Positions 1,061-20,285 of a stretch of 21,653 bases of DNA are shown here, in pieces (position 1 is the stretch's first letter; every line of letters starts with the position of its first letter). The stretch is from a virus: IMG/VR virus record IMGVR_UViG_3300035670_001377, positions 1 through 21,653 of that record; one strand, written 5' to 3'. The position numbers and the translations under genes were made by a program. The notes under the pieces were generated by a model, which worked only from the letters and a program-made list of their open reading frames with translations, did no database searches and was not told where the DNA came from.

Positions 1061-1644
1061 AGGTCACAAAAAAGGCGCGCATTGAGGAGGCGCGAAAACT
1101 TATTGATAGCGTCGCTATGTGGGAAGAGTGGACGCCACTGCAGCTTGCCGAGCTGTCAGAGCTGACCGGCACAAAGATCACCTACGCTATGCGCAAGCCA
1201 AACCCGTCGTATCCCAGCGACAAGCGCATGCTTGAGGTCATAACTGGCGATTGGATAAAGCCGGCTGCGTGGTCATGGCGCAGGGCTATTGAGTCCTCGG
1301 GCGATATCGTGGCATATACAAAGGGCAAGCAAATTGCGGCGCTGAGGCAGGGCATACTTGAGCAGATAGCAGCAGCCCGTGCTGGGTTAGGCGATGCCTG
1401 CGAAAAGTGTGGCGCTGCTCACGACTTAACCGTCGACCACGCTGCGACTGCATTCTCTGACATTGCAAAAGATTTCTTGGCGATATTTCCGGTGCTGCAG
1501 TTGAAAGATACAGACGGCTCTGGCGGGATTATCGCAGACGAAGTAATCCTGCACGCATGGCAGGACTATCATCACAAACGCGCGGCATACGCTCTGCTTT
1601 GCCGGTCGTGTAACAGTACAAAGGGAGCGGGGGTAGCAGCATGA
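1057..1644 (+). CDS. HNH-like zinc-binding protein, putative endonuclease
   Basis: The 195-residue protein starts at an ATGA junction with the Cro-like gene and ends at another ATGA junction with the primase-helicase. The C-terminal half carries CEKC (C115, C118), TVDH (H128) and LCRSCNSTKG (C182, C185, N186). Two CxxC pairs flanking a DH fit the beta-beta-alpha-metal fold of HNH nucleases, but the middle region is long (about 55 residues) and the classical second histidine is not obvious. The N-terminal half is a charged, helical region of unknown role. In this position it might be an early nuclease, or a DNA-binding accessory of replication. Zinc binding is likely; nuclease activity is inference. 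Confidence 0.7.
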   Translation: MKVTKKARIEEARKLIDSVAMWEEWTPLQLAELSELTGTKITYAMRKPNPSYPSDKRMLEVITGDWIKPAAWSWRRAIESSGDIVAYTKGKQIAALRQGILEQIAAARAGLGDACEKCGAAHDLTVDHAATAFSDIAKDFLAIFPVLQLKDTDGSGGIIADEVILHAWQDYHHKRAAYALLCRSCNSTKGAGVAA

Positions 1645-3788
1645 ATAGGCAAAGCATGACTAGGATCAGCGATCAAGGGCCGTTGATTACATACACGGTA
1701 TTTCCGGACGTATGGCCGAAGCAAAAGACCGAGTACGCCGACACGCCATGGATCGAGCTTGTCCGCACGCTTGCCAACCCGCCGCACTACATGAGCAAGG
1801 CGGCCTGCCCGCTGCTGAGTCTTTGTGAGTACGGCGAGAACGTCTCAGACAAGGGCTACCTGCGCCACGCCGGTAACGTCGTGCGCTGCTACGGCATTGA
1901 GGTGGACTACGACGGGGAAGAGGTGAGCGTCGATGAGGGCGCAAAGCGCCTAGAGGCCGCGGGCCTAATGGCGATTATTTATACTAGCGCGAGCTACACC
2001 GATGGAGCGCCGCGCTGGCGGGCAATCCTGCCGCTGGCAGAACCGGCGGCACCCAACATGCGCAACGTATTTGTGGCGCGCGCTAACCGCGCACTCGGCG
2101 GTATCGCGAGCCGCGAGAGTTTTACCCTGTCGCAGAGCTTCTACTTTGGGCAGGTGCGCGGCGCCAAGTACCGGTACATCGAGACGCACGGCCGCTGCAT
2201 CGATCAAGCCGCAGACCTTGAGCCGTTGTTTCACCAGGCGCAGGGCACAGATCCGAAGACAGGCCGCGACACACGCAGCAACCAGCAACTGCTCGAGGCA
2301 TTCTCCCGTGGCGAGGGGCGATACGAGTCGATGCTGAAGCTCTCCAGCCGCTGGGCCGCACGCGGCATGGAGTACGACGATATCGTCAGCAGCCTCACCG
2401 AACTGCTTGACAGCAGCGGCAGCAGCCTGAACGGCGATGGCGTCGACCTGCGTAGCAGAATTGAGCCGATGGCGGCAAGTGCTGTGCGCAAGTTTGGCGG
2501 CACTGTGCCCGAGGTGCGGATCAACGCGGCCGTGCGGGGGCAGGTAGCGCAGGGCGATGTACACACAACGTCCGTACAAGACATGAGCGCGAGCAACGCT
2601 GGCATCGTCGCCAAACGCTGGCAGCCGGTGTCGGCCGATAGCATCCCGCCGCGGCAGTGGCTGTACGGATTCCATTACATGCGGCGCATGGTCAGCATGA
2701 CCGCAGGTGCGGGCGGCGGCGGTAAGTCGTCGATGACGATGGTCGAGGCAATCAGCATGGCACTCGGGCGCGACCTGCTGCGCGGCAAGTGGCAACTGCC
2801 GACTGGGCCGCTCAAAGTCTGGGTGCACAACGGCGAAGATCCGATGGATGAGCTGCAGCGCAGGCTCACGGCGATCTGTATGCAGTACGCCATCGAACCC
2901 GAGGATGTGGCGCAGAACCTCTACATTACGAGCGGTCGAGATACGCGAATCATCGTGGCCGAGGAGATTGATGGCACGGTCATGCAGATGCCCGCGGCCA
3001 GGCAGCAGATCGTCGAGCAGGCCAAGGCCGAGCGTATTGATGCGATGATCCTTGACCCTTTCATCGCGACCCACGCCGTCAATGAGAATAACAACCCGGC
3101 AATGGAGAAGGTGATGTGGGAATGGCGCGCCATTGCCGAGCAGGCCAACATCGCCGTCGAGATCGTGCACCACTTCCGTAAGGGCAACGGCAACGAGGCA
3201 TCGAGCGAGGATGTGCGCGGTGCGTCGGCGCTGCTCGGTGCCTGCCGCAGCGTGCGGATCGCCTCGCCGATGAGCCAGCAGGAGGCGGAGCGGTACAGCA
3301 TCGACATGAAGGAGCGCCGCCGGTACTTCTGGCTGCAGAACCCGAAGGCGAACATGCGCCCGCCGACAGATGAGCGGCTGTGGCGGCAACTGGTGAGCGT
3401 GGATCTGGGCAACACCGACAGCATCTATACCGAGGGCGACAAGGTGGGCGTGGTCTGCGAGTGGAGTCCGCCGACCGCCGACACGCAGTTGACGCACGGG
3501 CAGAAGATGATCGTGCTGCGTGACCTTGAGGCGGCCTATAACAAAGACCCGCTCCTAGTGCGCGCCGATGTCCGCAGCACGCAGTGGGCTGGGCAGATCG
3601 TGGCTAGGCACATGGAGCTTGACATCAATGACGCCGGGGCGAGGGCGACCGTCAGGCGGGTACTTGATGAGTGGGAGCGCGATGGTAGCGTGACCAAGGT
3701 GTCGGCTCGAGATCATGCCAAGGGGCGATACTTGAGCGTCTACAAGGTCGGCGAGAAGGTGGCTGACGAGGAAGAGGTGCCGTTTTGA
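1641..3788 (+). CDS. Primase-helicase fusion (AEP/RepB-like primase plus RepA-type AAA_25 helicase)
   Basis: A 715-residue two-part replication protein. Residues about 80-200 hold a primase-like region: GIEVDYDGEE (85-94), TSASYTDGAPRWRAILPL (115-132) and YFGQVRG (168-174), resembling archaeo-eukaryotic/RepB-type primases that open with an acidic D-x-D strand. Residues about 335-545 form a RecA-fold ATPase: Walker A GAGGGGKSS (356-364), HNGED (397-401), Walker B IDAMILDPF (466-474), HHFRKG (510-515) and RGASALLGA (526-534), typical of hexameric RepA-like helicases. The C-terminal tail (about 620-710) looks like a winged-helix region. Together these would unwind and prime phage DNA. It starts in an ATGA junction and is followed directly by the CCCCCAGTT repeat array, possibly its target. 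Primase catalysis is less certain than the helicase. Confidence 0.88.
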   Translation: MNRQSMTRISDQGPLITYTVFPDVWPKQKTEYADTPWIELVRTLANPPHYMSKAACPLLSLCEYGENVSDKGYLRHAGNVVRCYGIEVDYDGEEVSVDEGAKRLEAAGLMAIIYTSASYTDGAPRWRAILPLAEPAAPNMRNVFVARANRALGGIASRESFTLSQSFYFGQVRGAKYRYIETHGRCIDQAADLEPLFHQAQGTDPKTGRDTRSNQQLLEAFSRGEGRYESMLKLSSRWAARGMEYDDIVSSLTELLDSSGSSLNGDGVDLRSRIEPMAASAVRKFGGTVPEVRINAAVRGQVAQGDVHTTSVQDMSASNAGIVAKRWQPVSADSIPPRQWLYGFHYMRRMVSMTAGAGGGGKSSMTMVEAISMALGRDLLRGKWQLPTGPLKVWVHNGEDPMDELQRRLTAICMQYAIEPEDVAQNLYITSGRDTRIIVAEEIDGTVMQMPAARQQIVEQAKAERIDAMILDPFIATHAVNENNNPAMEKVMWEWRAIAEQANIAVEIVHHFRKGNGNEASSEDVRGASALLGACRSVRIASPMSQQEAERYSIDMKERRRYFWLQNPKANMRPPTDERLWRQLVSVDLGNTDSIYTEGDKVGVVCEWSPPTADTQLTHGQKMIVLRDLEAAYNKDPLLVRADVRSTQWAGQIVARHMELDINDAGARATVRRVLDEWERDGSVTKVSARDHAKGRYLSVYKVGEKVADEEEVPF

Positions 3789-4000
3789 GCAACAAAGTTC
3801 CCCCCAGTTTCCCCCAGTTTCCCCAAGTCTTCCCTAAGTTCGTTAAGCAACTGGGGAGGGGAATCTTGGGGTTTTTCCCCAAGTTCCCCAGTTCCCCAGT
3901 TATATATAGGGAATCCAACTGGGGGAACGAAAAATCAATGACTTACGCGCGTTTTGGTTTTTCCCCCAGTTTTCCCCCAGTTGAGGCAAGCCATGTCTAA
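3785..4000 (+). CDS. Possible 71-residue Pro/Phe repeat protein encoded by the repeat array
   Basis: A TTG start overlaps the primase-helicase stop in a TTGA junction, with GAAGAGGTG just upstream as a good ribosome site. The frame reads through the CCCCCAGTT repeats to give SFPQFPQVFPKF-type repeats and later SPSFPPVEA. Because the DNA repeats impose the peptide, coding may be incidental to a DNA function. The frame ends eight bases into the next gene. The same TTGAGC junction type appears at 15325, which supports real translation. I do not recognise the product. Confidence 0.35.
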   Translation: MSNKVPPSFPQFPQVFPKFVKQLGRGILGFFPKFPSSPVIYRESNWGNEKSMTYARFGFSPSFPPVEASHV

Positions 4001-4012
4001 ATTCCCCCAGTT
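3800..4012. repeat. CCCCCAGTT iteron-like repeat array, candidate replication origin
   Basis: About thirteen copies of (C)CCCCAGTT or close variants occur in both orientations. Direct copies: 3800-3810, 3811-3820, degenerate 3821-3830 and 3831-3840, 3877-3885, 3886-3893, 3894-3901, 3963-3971, 3974-3982, 4004-4012. Inverted copies: 3849-3856, 3862-3871, 3917-3925. The first four are spaced by 10 bp, one helical turn. An AT run, TATATATA, lies at 3901-3908. Position directly after the primase-helicase suggests iterons or a primase-assembly site; no replication-initiator gene other than the fusion protein is seen. Confidence 0.5.
3849..3901 (+). other. Long imperfect hairpin inside the repeat array
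   Basis: Arms pair as AACTGGGG (3849-3856) with CCCCAGTT (3894-3901), GGGGAA (3858-3863) with TTCCCC (3884-3889), and CTTGGGG (3865-3871) with CCCCAAG (3877-3883), around a TTTTT loop. That is about 21 base pairs with one single-base bulge and a small internal loop. It could work as a single-strand initiation hairpin for primase, or as a transcription attenuator in the early operon. No U-tract follows it, which argues against a simple intrinsic terminator. Confidence 0.5.
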
Positions 4013-4217
4013 GCGAAACCGCCACAAAGCCGTCGAGAAGCGCATGAAGATGGCCGAGCCAGTGGCTGACAATCCCGTCGCCAAGCGAATGCTTGACGCA
4101 ATGGGAGATGACGGACTGGCGCTGATGCGAACCTTTCAACAGTACTTCGGTGCCAAGCTCGTCCACTACCAAGACGAGGCTGGTGAGCTTGGCAAGAAGC
4201 CGGGGTGGGTGGAATGA
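3993..4217 (+). CDS. 74-residue early protein, unknown
   Basis: I chose the ATG at 3993, which follows a TTGAGG ribosome-like site by about 7 bases; an upstream TTG at 3954 in the same frame would add only repeat-derived residues. The 74-residue product (MSKFPQLRNRHKAVEKRMKM...) has a basic N-terminus and a helical middle (MLDAMGDDGLALMRTFQQYF), and ends GKKPGWVE. It overlaps the preceding frame by eight bases and the next gene by four (ATGA). No family recognised; size and position suggest a small early regulator or host-takeover protein, which is a guess from context only. Confidence 0.6.
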   Translation: MSKFPQLRNRHKAVEKRMKMAEPVADNPVAKRMLDAMGDDGLALMRTFQQYFGAKLVHYQDEAGELGKKPGWVE

Positions 4218-4513
4218 CTCAGGGCAAGTTGAACATGCTCTCCCGCCTTGAGTGGGAGGACTCAGACTTCTGGGGTAAGACGTCGCTGTGCCGTCGGTTC
4301 TCCATCCGCAGCCAGACCATCAACGGCAAGACCGATCACACGTTATGGCGACGTGGGAAGGATGGCAGCGTCATCCCGGTCAACCTTGGCACCTTCGATA
4401 CCTTCGAGGATGCGGTCGAGGCTGCTGAGGAGGCGAAGTACGACACGCCTAAGCGCAATGCTGGGAACTTCTTCCCTGCCGACAAACGAGATCCATGGGA
4501 CGTCCTGAAATGA
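4214..4513 (+). CDS. 99-residue early protein, unknown
   Basis: Start chosen at the ATG in the ATGA junction with the preceding gene; an in-frame GTG at 4205 would add three residues. The product (MTQGKLNMLSRLEWEDSDFW...) contains two beta-strand-like stretches around SIRSQTINGKTDHTLWRRGKDGSVIPVNLG, then an acidic helix EDAVEAAEEAKY, resembling small DNA- or protein-binding folds such as AP2-like domains, though the match is too weak to name. It ends DKRDPWDVLK and overlaps the next gene by four bases. The chain of ATGA junctions on both sides is the main support that it is translated. Confidence 0.65.
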   Translation: MTQGKLNMLSRLEWEDSDFWGKTSLCRRFSIRSQTINGKTDHTLWRRGKDGSVIPVNLGTFDTFEDAVEAAEEAKYDTPKRNAGNFFPADKRDPWDVLK

Positions 4514-5499: not shown

Positions 5500-6041
5500 T
5501 GGCAGGATCACCAAAGAAGCGAGAACGCAGAGAACGTGCGACGGCCTTGATGGCCAAAGACAACTTCATGCCTGAGCTGTGTGAGTACATCAGCAACGGT
5601 GGAAGCCTTGTGCAGTTTGCTATCGCCTCGCAGATTCCGTACGGCAGACTTCACCAGTTCATCGCAGAGGATGAGGTCAGGAAGCAGCAACTTGACGTGG
5701 CTCGTCGTGCTCGCGCTATGTGGCACGTTGACCGTATCGAGACGCTGGCTGACTCAGTGGAACAGGAACGCATTGATCCTCACGCAGCCAAGGTTGCCTC
5801 AGACATTCGACGTTGGGTTGCCTCTCGATTGGACATGCAACAGTGGGGCGACAAGGTGCAGCAGAAGATCGAGATAACCGACACGACCAAGCTGCACCTT
5901 GAGGCGGTGCGTAACCTGATGAAGACGGTGAGCGTCCAGATGCCAGAAAAGCTGACTTCGCACACAGCGACGGACGCTGATTCGGACGCGCGCGATTCAT
6001 CAGATGCAAACGCAAATGAGAATCATTCGCATTTAGACTGA
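5499..6041 (+). CDS. terS: Terminase small subunit-like protein
   Basis: This 180-residue protein sits before the large terminase. Residues about 20-60 (MPELCEYISNGGSLVQFAIASQIPYGRLHQFI) look like a helix-turn-helix used to recognise packaging DNA; 65-95 form a helix, and 105-150 (VASDIRRWVASRLDMQQWGDKVQQKIEI) contain the W-A-S/R-L-x-x-x-x-W-G-D-K-V motif common in this terminase family. The C-terminal tail is disordered and acidic (SDARDSSDANANENHSHLD). The start shares one base with the preceding stop. Its last codons contain the first copy of a 25-bp palindromic repeat that recurs downstream. Role: binds the packaging site and recruits the motor. Confidence 0.75.
   Translation: MAGSPKKRERRERATALMAKDNFMPELCEYISNGGSLVQFAIASQIPYGRLHQFIAEDEVRKQQLDVARRARAMWHVDRIETLADSVEQERIDPHAAKVASDIRRWVASRLDMQQWGDKVQQKIEITDTTKLHLEAVRNLMKTVSVQMPEKLTSHTATDADSDARDSSDANANENHSHLD
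6011..6035. repeat. 25-bp palindromic repeat, copy 1 (Fur-box-like)
   Basis: The site has 10-bp arms around a central C, AAATGAGAAT / ATTCGCATTT with one arm mismatch. It matches 23 of 25 bases with a second copy at 6209-6233. Its core AATGAGAATCATT differs at one base from the centre of the Fur-box consensus (AATGATAATCATT). It lies inside the last codons of the small-terminase gene. Confidence 0.5.
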
Positions 6042-6108
6042 GGTTTTATGCAGACTAATGCGCATAATCGACGGATCAGCAGCGCAGCGCGAACAGCGCA
6101 CGCGCAAG

Positions 6109-6125
6109 TCGTTGATTATCAACGA
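6109..6125. promoter_or_regulatory. Perfect 17-bp palindrome
   Basis: TCGTTGAT (6109-6116) and ATCAACGA (6118-6125) are exact inverted repeats around one T. The dyad centre is about 38 bp before the start point expected for the TATAAT at 6143, where an activator or repressor could sit. Its half-sites also resemble a weak DnaA box (TTATCAACG). Confidence 0.45.
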
Positions 6126-6142
6126 GATAATTTCGCAGTTCG

Positions 6143-6148
6143 TATAAT
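6143..6148 (+). promoter_or_regulatory. Consensus -10 element, possible terL promoter
   Basis: TATAAT is perfect, but the -35 position at 16-18 bp spacing (around 6119-6126) has no match to TTGACA and no TGN extension precedes it. It might be an activator-dependent promoter using the palindrome at 6109-6125, or merely part of an AT-rich unwinding stretch (6126-6164). Confidence 0.3.
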
Positions 6149-6164
6149 ACCCATTATGTTAAAT

Positions 6165-6205
6165 GGTGGATAACCTGTGGATAACACCGATCCTCCTGTT
6201 GATAA
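6165..6205 (-). promoter_or_regulatory. Cluster of DnaA-box-like 9-mers
   Basis: On the minus strand TTATCCACA (6184-6176) is the ideal DnaA box; TTATCCACC (6173-6165) matches 8 of 9 and TTATCAACA (6205-6197) 8 of 9. The first two are 11 bp apart, one helical turn, in the same orientation. An AT-rich stretch lies just before them. The cluster could be a host-DnaA-dependent origin or a DnaA-regulated promoter. Confidence 0.5.
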
Positions 6206-6208
6206 CCG

Positions 6209-6233
6209 CGCAAATGAGAACAATTCGCATTTA
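6209..6233. repeat. 25-bp palindromic repeat, copy 2
   Basis: This copy differs from the one at 6011-6035 at two central bases only, keeping both outer arms (AAATGAGAA / TTCGCATTT). The two copies enclose the 173-bp segment with the palindrome, TATAAT and DnaA-like boxes. A run of nine C and four G follows immediately (6234-6246). Confidence 0.5.
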
Positions 6234-6330
6234 CCCCCCCCCGGGGTGGCAGGTGGCGGGGGCGGCGCTGGCGTACTACCCCACAGAGACCCCCCACGGG
6301 GGCAGATAACACCCTTCGGGGAGGTATGAC
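6234..6330 (+). promoter_or_regulatory. GC-rich terL leader with hairpins
   Basis: The leader holds C9G4 (6234-6246), a CCCC/GGGG hairpin around 6291-6302, and CCC-TTCG-GGG (6312-6321), a stable UUCG-type tetraloop. The latter's 3' arm is part of the GGGGAGG ribosome site (6318-6324) for the TTG start at 6331, so folding could limit translation. Nothing in it looks coding. Confidence 0.4.
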
Positions 6331-17597: not shown

Positions 17598-17637
17598 AAC
17601 TTGGGGGCGGCGGCAATGGTGCCGTCGCCCCTAGGTT
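17598..17637 (+). terminator. Hairpin 2, strong GC stem after the capsid gene
   Basis: GGGGCGGCGGCA (17604-17615) pairs with TGCCGTCGCCCC (17620-17631) over 12 positions with one G-U, around ATGG, and AACTTG/TAGGTT extend the stem with further wobbles. There is no U-tract, so an ordinary intrinsic terminator is doubtful; a mRNA-stabilising or partial-termination role after the abundant capsid message fits. Confidence 0.5.
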
Positions 17638-19619: not shown

Positions 19620-20285
19620 GTGGCCGGTTACGGCAGCGGCTTATATGGGCGTGGCAATTACGGCATAGACCCCAAAGAGGGGGCAGCCACGCTAAACGCA
19701 GCGGCGACGCTTGTTGTCGCCGGCGTACTGGTGCAGCAGGGTGCTGCAACGCTGAACGCAGCGGCAACGCTTACGATCAGCGCGACGCGCGTGCAGCAGG
19801 GGGCTGCAGCGCTTTCGGCGGCGGCAACGCTCACAGCGACCGCCAACAGGGTGCAGAACGCTGCGGCGGCGCTCTCTGCGGCTGCGACGCTGACTGCGAG
19901 CGCAGCTCGAGTGCAGCAGGGCGCTGCGGCGCTCTCAGCAGCGGCGACGCTGGCGGCGAGTGCGGAGCGCATCCAACCTGGCGCAGCGGTACTGCTGGCA
20001 GCGGCCACGCTAACTGCCACGGCAAACCGGGTGCAGTTCGCCTCCTGCGCGATCAATGCCGTTTCGGCACTGACGTGCGCAGGACGCAAGAAGTGGGAAG
20101 ACGAGCCAGACACGCCAGAGAGCTGGACGCCGCAGGCAGATACGGCGCTGGCGTGGACGGCGCAGAGTGATACTGCAAGGTCGTGGACGCCGCAGAGCGA
20201 CACGGCGGAGACATGGACGCCGCAAGGCGACACATCGAGAACTTGGACAGAGAAAACACACCCGGCCTACTTAGAGGCTGCTTGA
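19620..20285 (+). CDS. Protein of two tandem repeat types (20-residue and 10-residue), probable tail component
   Basis: After a Gly/Tyr-rich N-terminus (MAGYGSGLYGRGNYGIDPKE), seven 20-residue repeats occupy residues 21-160 (DNA 19680-20099, exact 60-bp period), consensus GAA-x-L-AAATLT-x-x-A-x-RVQ. They look helical or beta-solenoid, with the last copy degenerate. Residues 161-210 (DNA 20100-20249) are five 10-residue repeats ending in WT (P/A-Q-x-DT-A-x-x-WT). The start is GTG with no clear ribosome site. It lies between the small fibre-like gene and the long fibre, so a tail shaft or spacer is likely. I do not recognise a named family for the whole. Confidence 0.7.
   Translation: MAGYGSGLYGRGNYGIDPKEGAATLNAAATLVVAGVLVQQGAATLNAAATLTISATRVQQGAAALSAAATLTATANRVQNAAAALSAAATLTASAARVQQGAAALSAAATLAASAERIQPGAAVLLAAATLTATANRVQFASCAINAVSALTCAGRKKWEDEPDTPESWTPQADTALAWTAQSDTARSWTPQSDTAETWTPQGDTSRTWTEKTHPAYLEAA
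19680..20099 (+). repeat. Seven 60-bp in-frame tandem repeats
   Basis: Units start at 19680 and follow every 60 bases, most sharing GTGCAGCAGG and a GCAGCGGC-ACGCT core. The first six are clear and the seventh is degenerate. Five 30-bp units follow at 20100-20249. All keep the reading frame, so copy number can change without frameshift. Confidence 0.85.

Follow-up and report, generated by a model that had tools for sequence, protein, structure and literature searches.

A short-repeat array downstream of a RepA-type helicase gene is the probable replication origin of an SU10-like phage

A 213-base cluster of short repeats lies directly 3' of the gene for a 715-amino-acid (aa) RepA-type protein in the window, the 21,653-bp viral record analysed here. 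This array is very probably the replication origin (oriV) of an SU10-like phage, where several RepA protomers would be held by a C-terminal wing, with an IHF bend, opening of TATATATA and loading of RepA. The initial annotation, which had proposed a phage origin next to the RepA-type helicase, is strongly supported by comparison with relatives and by the confinement of the 9-mer to the array. The comparison shows that the array is constrained as non-coding DNA and confined to one place, that it keeps its position downstream of repA and is exchanged together with the helicase half of the protein, that the repeat letters covary with wing residues, and that the IHF consensus is enriched. From these we infer physical RepA binding, melting, helicase loading, priming and replication start at the array. 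With less confidence, we think it probable that a modular wing code governs how initiator helicases of the RepA type recognise their origins in proteobacterial phages and phage-plasmids, the central NN of nC-NN-CA(G/C) following the wing residues.

Results

A confined repeat array follows repA

The 9-mer CCCCCAGTT occurs in six exact copies (five on the plus strand, one on the minus strand), all within 3801-4012 and none elsewhere in the record. It is thus not spread over the genome, as a check proposed earlier had asked, and this favours an origin. With one mismatch allowed, 13 matches were found in the whole window, 9-10 of them inside the array (3801-4012); shuffled sequences gave a mean of 3.3 per whole window, and none of 100 reached 13. 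The degenerate unit [CT]CCC[CA]AGT[TC] gave 11 array copies (nine plus, two minus) and a single outside copy at 17598. An earlier count of about thirteen copies in both orientations was correct for the orientations and slightly high in number (actually 11-12), because the degenerate unit gives 11. The first copies are spaced by about 10 bp (3801, 3811, 3821 and about 3832). This period, also described before, is real in the window but is not a conserved feature, since it is 9 bp in most relatives. The features of the locus, in window coordinates, are as follows.

1641..3788, plus strand: 715-aa replication protein of the RepA type, with a primase-like N-terminal part, a hexameric RecA-fold helicase core and a winged-helix-like C-terminal tail (Pfam, profile and PHROG matches)
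3585..3785, plus strand: helix-helix-hairpin at the C-terminus of RepA (residues about 649-715), put forward as the iteron-binding domain (low-confidence AlphaFold model; covariation with the repeat)
3720..3740, plus strand: wing residues KGRYLSV (694-700), proposed readers of the variable repeat centre (alignment columns follow the repeat dinucleotide across relatives)
3801-3809, 3811-3819, 3821-3829 (CCCCAAGTC) and about 3832-3840 (degenerate), plus strand: left direct repeats (unit scan; conserved in relatives)
3849-3857, minus strand: inverted repeat copy TCCCCAGTT, left hairpin arm (unit scan)
3849-3901, plus strand: imperfect 22-pair hairpin of inverted and direct repeat copies (folding)
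3877-3885, 3885-3893 and 3893-3901, plus strand: middle direct repeats with an 8-bp step (unit scan; CCCCAGTTCCCCAGTT invariant in the alignment)
3901-3908, no strand: TATATATA, candidate unwinding element (sequence; TATATA kept in 17 of 17 aligned sequences)
3917-3925, minus strand: inverted exact repeat CCCCCAGTT (exact search)
3933-3945, plus strand: AATCAATGACTTA, site fitting the IHF consensus WATCAANNNNTTR (PMC10380432)
3963-3971, 3974-3982 and 4004-4012, plus strand: right direct repeats (unit scan), the last within the start of the next small gene

Two marks of an iteron origin are found here: several unit copies, all but restricted to a single locus next to the gene for the initiator, and, by sequence, an AT-rich unwinding element (TATATATA, noticed previously in the array and present at 3901-3908) together with an IHF site (consensus at 3933-3945). 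The array contains no DnaA box; two DnaA-like boxes sit 2.2 kb away.

The window also encodes an SU10-type portal and capsid. A 70-aa YdaS/Cro-like regulator upstream of the replication genes (848-1060) suggests temperate ancestry, and a protein of about 17-residue repeats (QGAATLNAAATL...) adjoins the tail genes (19620-20285).

The RepA-type protein

The core of the 715-aa protein matched Pfam AAA_25 (E=4e-34) and, by profile, RSF1010 RepA (PDB 1g8y, E=2.9e-15); plasmid RepA proteins are about 30% identical to it. It therefore has the homologous RecA-fold core that defines the RSF1010 RepA helicase family. The N-terminal 295 residues are likely, but not proven, to be a primase, because they matched one PHROG weakly (9765, 'DNA primase', 1.3e-5 to 3.4e-5) and had no match in Pfam or PDB, solved primases included.

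The C-terminal AlphaFold model has helices at 648-658 and 665-680 and strands at 684-691 and 696-703 (pLDDT roughly 56-81 there), a low-confidence helix-helix-beta-hairpin arrangement as in winged-helix domains. Mean pLDDT was 46 for the 715-aa protein and 36 for its relative L261, too weak to fix the fold in either case, and a PDB fold search was left unused because both models were poor.

The repeat moves with the helicase half

In near relatives of 32-36 kb that carry this unit, 8-9 of the 9-10 CCCCAGTT copies fall within one homologous stretch of about 180-210 bp. The array follows straight after the repA stop in close relatives, with most positions invariant and a common layout: left repeats, hairpin, three tightly packed repeats, TATATA, inverted repeat, AATCAA[TG]GACTTAC and right repeats. 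A more distant relative (L012) carries TTCCCCAAA(G/C)T-type units with the same AATCAAGGACTTAC.

A natural domain swap was found in L021-L028, whose match to the window protein is limited to residues 1-296 (about 80-81% identity). L021 has a different AAA_25 half and retains the next small gene; between repA and that gene it has TGTCCGGAT-type repeats in both orientations and lacks the CCCCAGTT array. These sequences indicate that the repeat travels with the helicase/C-terminal half, and that neither the N-terminal half nor the neighbouring gene brings it along. CCCCCAGTT repeats in both orientations also occur in a different phage with an unrelated gene neighbourhood (L032, 2690-2960), about 2.3 kb downstream of a minus-strand AAA-type helicase gene.

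Arrays keep their position across the family

We compared 90 relatives of the helicase half, drawn from viral contigs, genomes and circular plasmids, and scored 300-bp windows with at least five copies of a 7-mer as repeat-rich. There were almost no such windows in the 4 kb that precede the repA 3' end (two windows beyond 250 bp upstream), and they peaked 0-750 bp after the stop (24% at 0-250 bp, 23% at 500-750 bp). At least four copies were present in the first 300 bp in 39% of the 90 relatives and in 3% of control windows. By these criteria, no clear array was seen in about 27 of the 90. The units vary across the family (TGCGACAGTT, TGCTCCAGTT, TGCGTCAGTT, GCGTCACC, GCCGCACC, AGGTGGGG and others), and AT-rich 20-mers are enriched at the arrays. 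Circular plasmids of Methylobacterium, Microvirga and Rhodoplanes encode related RepA proteins (34-40% identity) with other repeats at the same place, and several related repA genes sit on circular plasmids that also bear phage genes. These plasmids lend indirect support to autonomous replication from this locus.

Wing residues covary with the repeat centre

The C-terminal tails of RepA relatives were aligned and their wing residues compared with the central dinucleotide of the repeat. Wings with QRHL or QRHM accompany GCGTCAGTT, SRHM accompanies GCGACAGTT, RRP GCTCCAGTT, RK GCGCC, R[ED] GCCGC, and KG[RNK] CCCC; the last group includes KGRYLSV of the window and KGREKPV of Methylobacterium. Where two proteins shared less than 45% identity outside the wing, having the same residue pair coincided with having the same dinucleotide in 41% versus 11%, and none of 2000 permutations reached this result. 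Outside the wing, L259 and L261 share 95% identity, yet both wing and unit differ (QRHLRKF with GCGTCAGTT in L259, QRRPRKY with GCTCCAGTT in L261).

In the proposed code, [SA]RH gives GA, other xRH GT, RRP TC, RK mostly GC, R[ED] CG, and RN and KG[RNK] CC. A rule set down in advance of examining further loci was correct in 11 of 15 testable new loci, or 9 of 13 when each wing was counted once. Binomial P values of about 1e-4 and 1e-3, respectively (base rate 0.25), are only indicative because related sequences are not fully independent. The loci where it failed have RK wings, in two cases preceded by serine. A partial Mantel test over whole C-terminal domains gave a weak signal (partial correlation 0.17, 1 of 300 permutations). 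The comparisons place the covariation in the wing, not in the C-terminal domain as a whole, and suggest that a few RepA amino acids predict the letters of its repeat.

An IHF-consensus site accompanies many arrays

AATCAATGACTTA, which is conserved in close relatives, fits the IHF consensus WATCAANNNNTTR (PMC10380432). The density of WATCAANNNNTTR was 1.08/kb near arrays and 0.08/kb elsewhere (13-fold), with no enrichment of a scrambled control motif near arrays. When the right half of the consensus was not assumed, 29% of ATCAA sites near arrays had TTR at the 4-base spacing versus 5% elsewhere, and other spacings showed little excess. Most alphaproteobacterial arrays have no IHF-like site.

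Searching for AATCAATGACTTACG brought up additional phages in which different repeats surround it; 28 of 114 windows had at least three copies of an 8-mer, compared with 5% of controls. We rejected AATCAATGACTTACG as an origin-specific motif: it also stands beside tRNA/att-like stretches and, because of these neighbours and the variation of its inner four bases, it fits IHF better than a primase site. In four phages unrelated to the window (L066, L081, L123 and L132) it lies directly beside tRNA-like fragments resembling attachment sites. In two other loci (L085 and L154), TAGGGGCA or TAGGGTCA forms arrays that are accompanied by two IHF-like sites and a TGTGGATAA box.

The hairpin and the comparison with RSF1010

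The long imperfect hairpin described earlier at 3849-3901 is present, with 22 pairs and -23.1 kcal/mol as DNA, against -12.0 +/- 2.4 in shuffles (z=-4.6); the whole array region folds with z=-6.5 against shuffles. Its arms are repeat copies, and we rejected it as an independently conserved structure, a single compensatory pair being equally explained by the repeat variants CAGTT and AAGTT. The proposal that it serves the primase as a priming site is unproven.

An improbable alternative is an RSF1010-type origin, in which a separate RepC-like protein would bind the repeats, RepA would only unwind, and the hairpin would be an ssi priming site for the primase part. The homologous helicase core, a hairpin stronger than shuffles and the frequency of hairpins near arrays across the family (79% versus 12% of windows) fit it. 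Against it, testing genes next to the array in this fragmentary record gave no RepC candidate, the repeat letters follow the C-terminal wing of the helicase polypeptide itself, the repeat swaps together with the helicase half, and the hairpin arms are themselves repeat copies whose lone compensatory pair has the explanation given above. The analogy with RSF1010 drawn in the initial annotation is sound for the helicase core and fails for the layout: RSF1010 uses a separate RepC to bind its iterons, with three separate proteins acting (PMC4234260), and we therefore do not file the array as an RSF1010-type replicon.

Regulatory and coding readings

Still less probable is a regulatory site, where RepA on the repeats would control transcription of repA or the next genes, or be titrated, and replication would start elsewhere, for example in the terS-terL gap (6041-6330). 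The array does lie between two co-oriented genes, such repeats could in principle serve RepA autoregulation or copy-number control without being the start point, and the gap has an IHF-like site (AATCAACGACTTG at 6105, minus strand) and DnaA-like boxes (TGTGGATAA at 6176, TGTTGATAA at 6197). However, no promoter-like or terminator-like match was found in 3600-4300, the array is downstream of repA rather than in front of it, its place is the same in circular phage-plasmids, and 6041-6330 contains no CCCCCAGTT array. The gap may serve for packaging or as a second control region; in another phage (L127), AATCAATGACTTACG lies beside a similar gap sequence.

GC skew, suggested earlier as a check in cumulative form, failed as an origin marker and was rejected. 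In three relatives the detrended extremum was 1.6-3.1 kb away from the array; it follows the gene-strand switch and is therefore uninformative.

The third reading, a short gene for a Pro/Phe-repeat peptide with the repeats as codon repeats, can be considered already refuted: the 71-aa frame with a TTG start that overlaps the array (ORF 3785-4000) exists as first described, but its variable columns spread by codon position as 30/27/24 (repA differences, 137/86/336), one-base indels shift it in relatives (L013 has a stop at codon 4), and the roughly 10-bp unit yields similar peptides in all three frames. By this comparison the array is a DNA element and not a gene; it had no match to an Rfam RNA element.

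Discussion

The SaPI Rep and SCCmec Cch2 helicases recognise, through a C-terminal domain, iterons just downstream of their own genes (PMC7581432). As reported for them, the simplest account of the phage array is that RepA itself would recognise the repeats through its C-terminal domain. The likeness extends to an initiator helicase with a C-terminal DNA-binding domain (predicted here from a low-confidence model and wing/repeat covariation), to short iterons immediately downstream of the helicase gene, and to a primase encoded nearby or fused. In contrast to SaPI and SCCmec, the phage helicase is of the RSF1010-RepA type (Pfam AAA_25), its hosts, where known, are proteobacteria, and many arrays have an IHF-consensus site.

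Other systems share parts of this arrangement. RSF1010 (IncQ) oriV has a homologous hexameric helicase core (1g8y) and repeats with a hairpin near the origin; here there is one polypeptide, no RepC among the neighbouring genes tested, and a unit of about 8-10 bp. Origins of the pRN1 and phage BIP-1 type (PMC4234260) also have a stem-loop and immediately follow a multi-domain replication gene whose product carries a winged helix at its C-terminus, but pRN1 has a superfamily-3 helicase and relies on a long stem-loop, with no iterons. The alpha protein of satellite phage P4 (PMC4234260) likewise combines primase, helicase and recognition of short origin repeats; its primase is of the Toprim type, and the comparison is one of domain make-up. 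Classical iteron plasmids with IHF, such as pSC101 and R6K (PMC4980987), have iterons, an AT-rich segment and an IHF site, whereas their iterons are 17-22 bp and their Rep proteins recruit host DnaB; here the initiator would itself be the helicase. A limited literature search, which is not proof of novelty, found no description of iterons or a recognition code for this helicase type in phages.

In the proposed mechanism, several RepA protomers would use the wing of the C-terminal domain to bind the short repeats, whichever way these are oriented. IHF would bend the DNA at 3933-3945, the TATATATA segment would open, and the RepA ring would load on the opened strands. The first primer could come from the N-terminal part, if it is a primase, or from the host.

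The origins of most environmental phages are unknown, and this class, many of whose members have an IHF-like site, can be picked out just behind repA-type genes with nothing more than the sequence. If the correspondence between wing and repeat holds, the specificity of the initiator could be read directly and the origin repeat predicted from the protein; replicon compatibility, and with it the incompatibility of phage-plasmids, would be predictable from a few residues.
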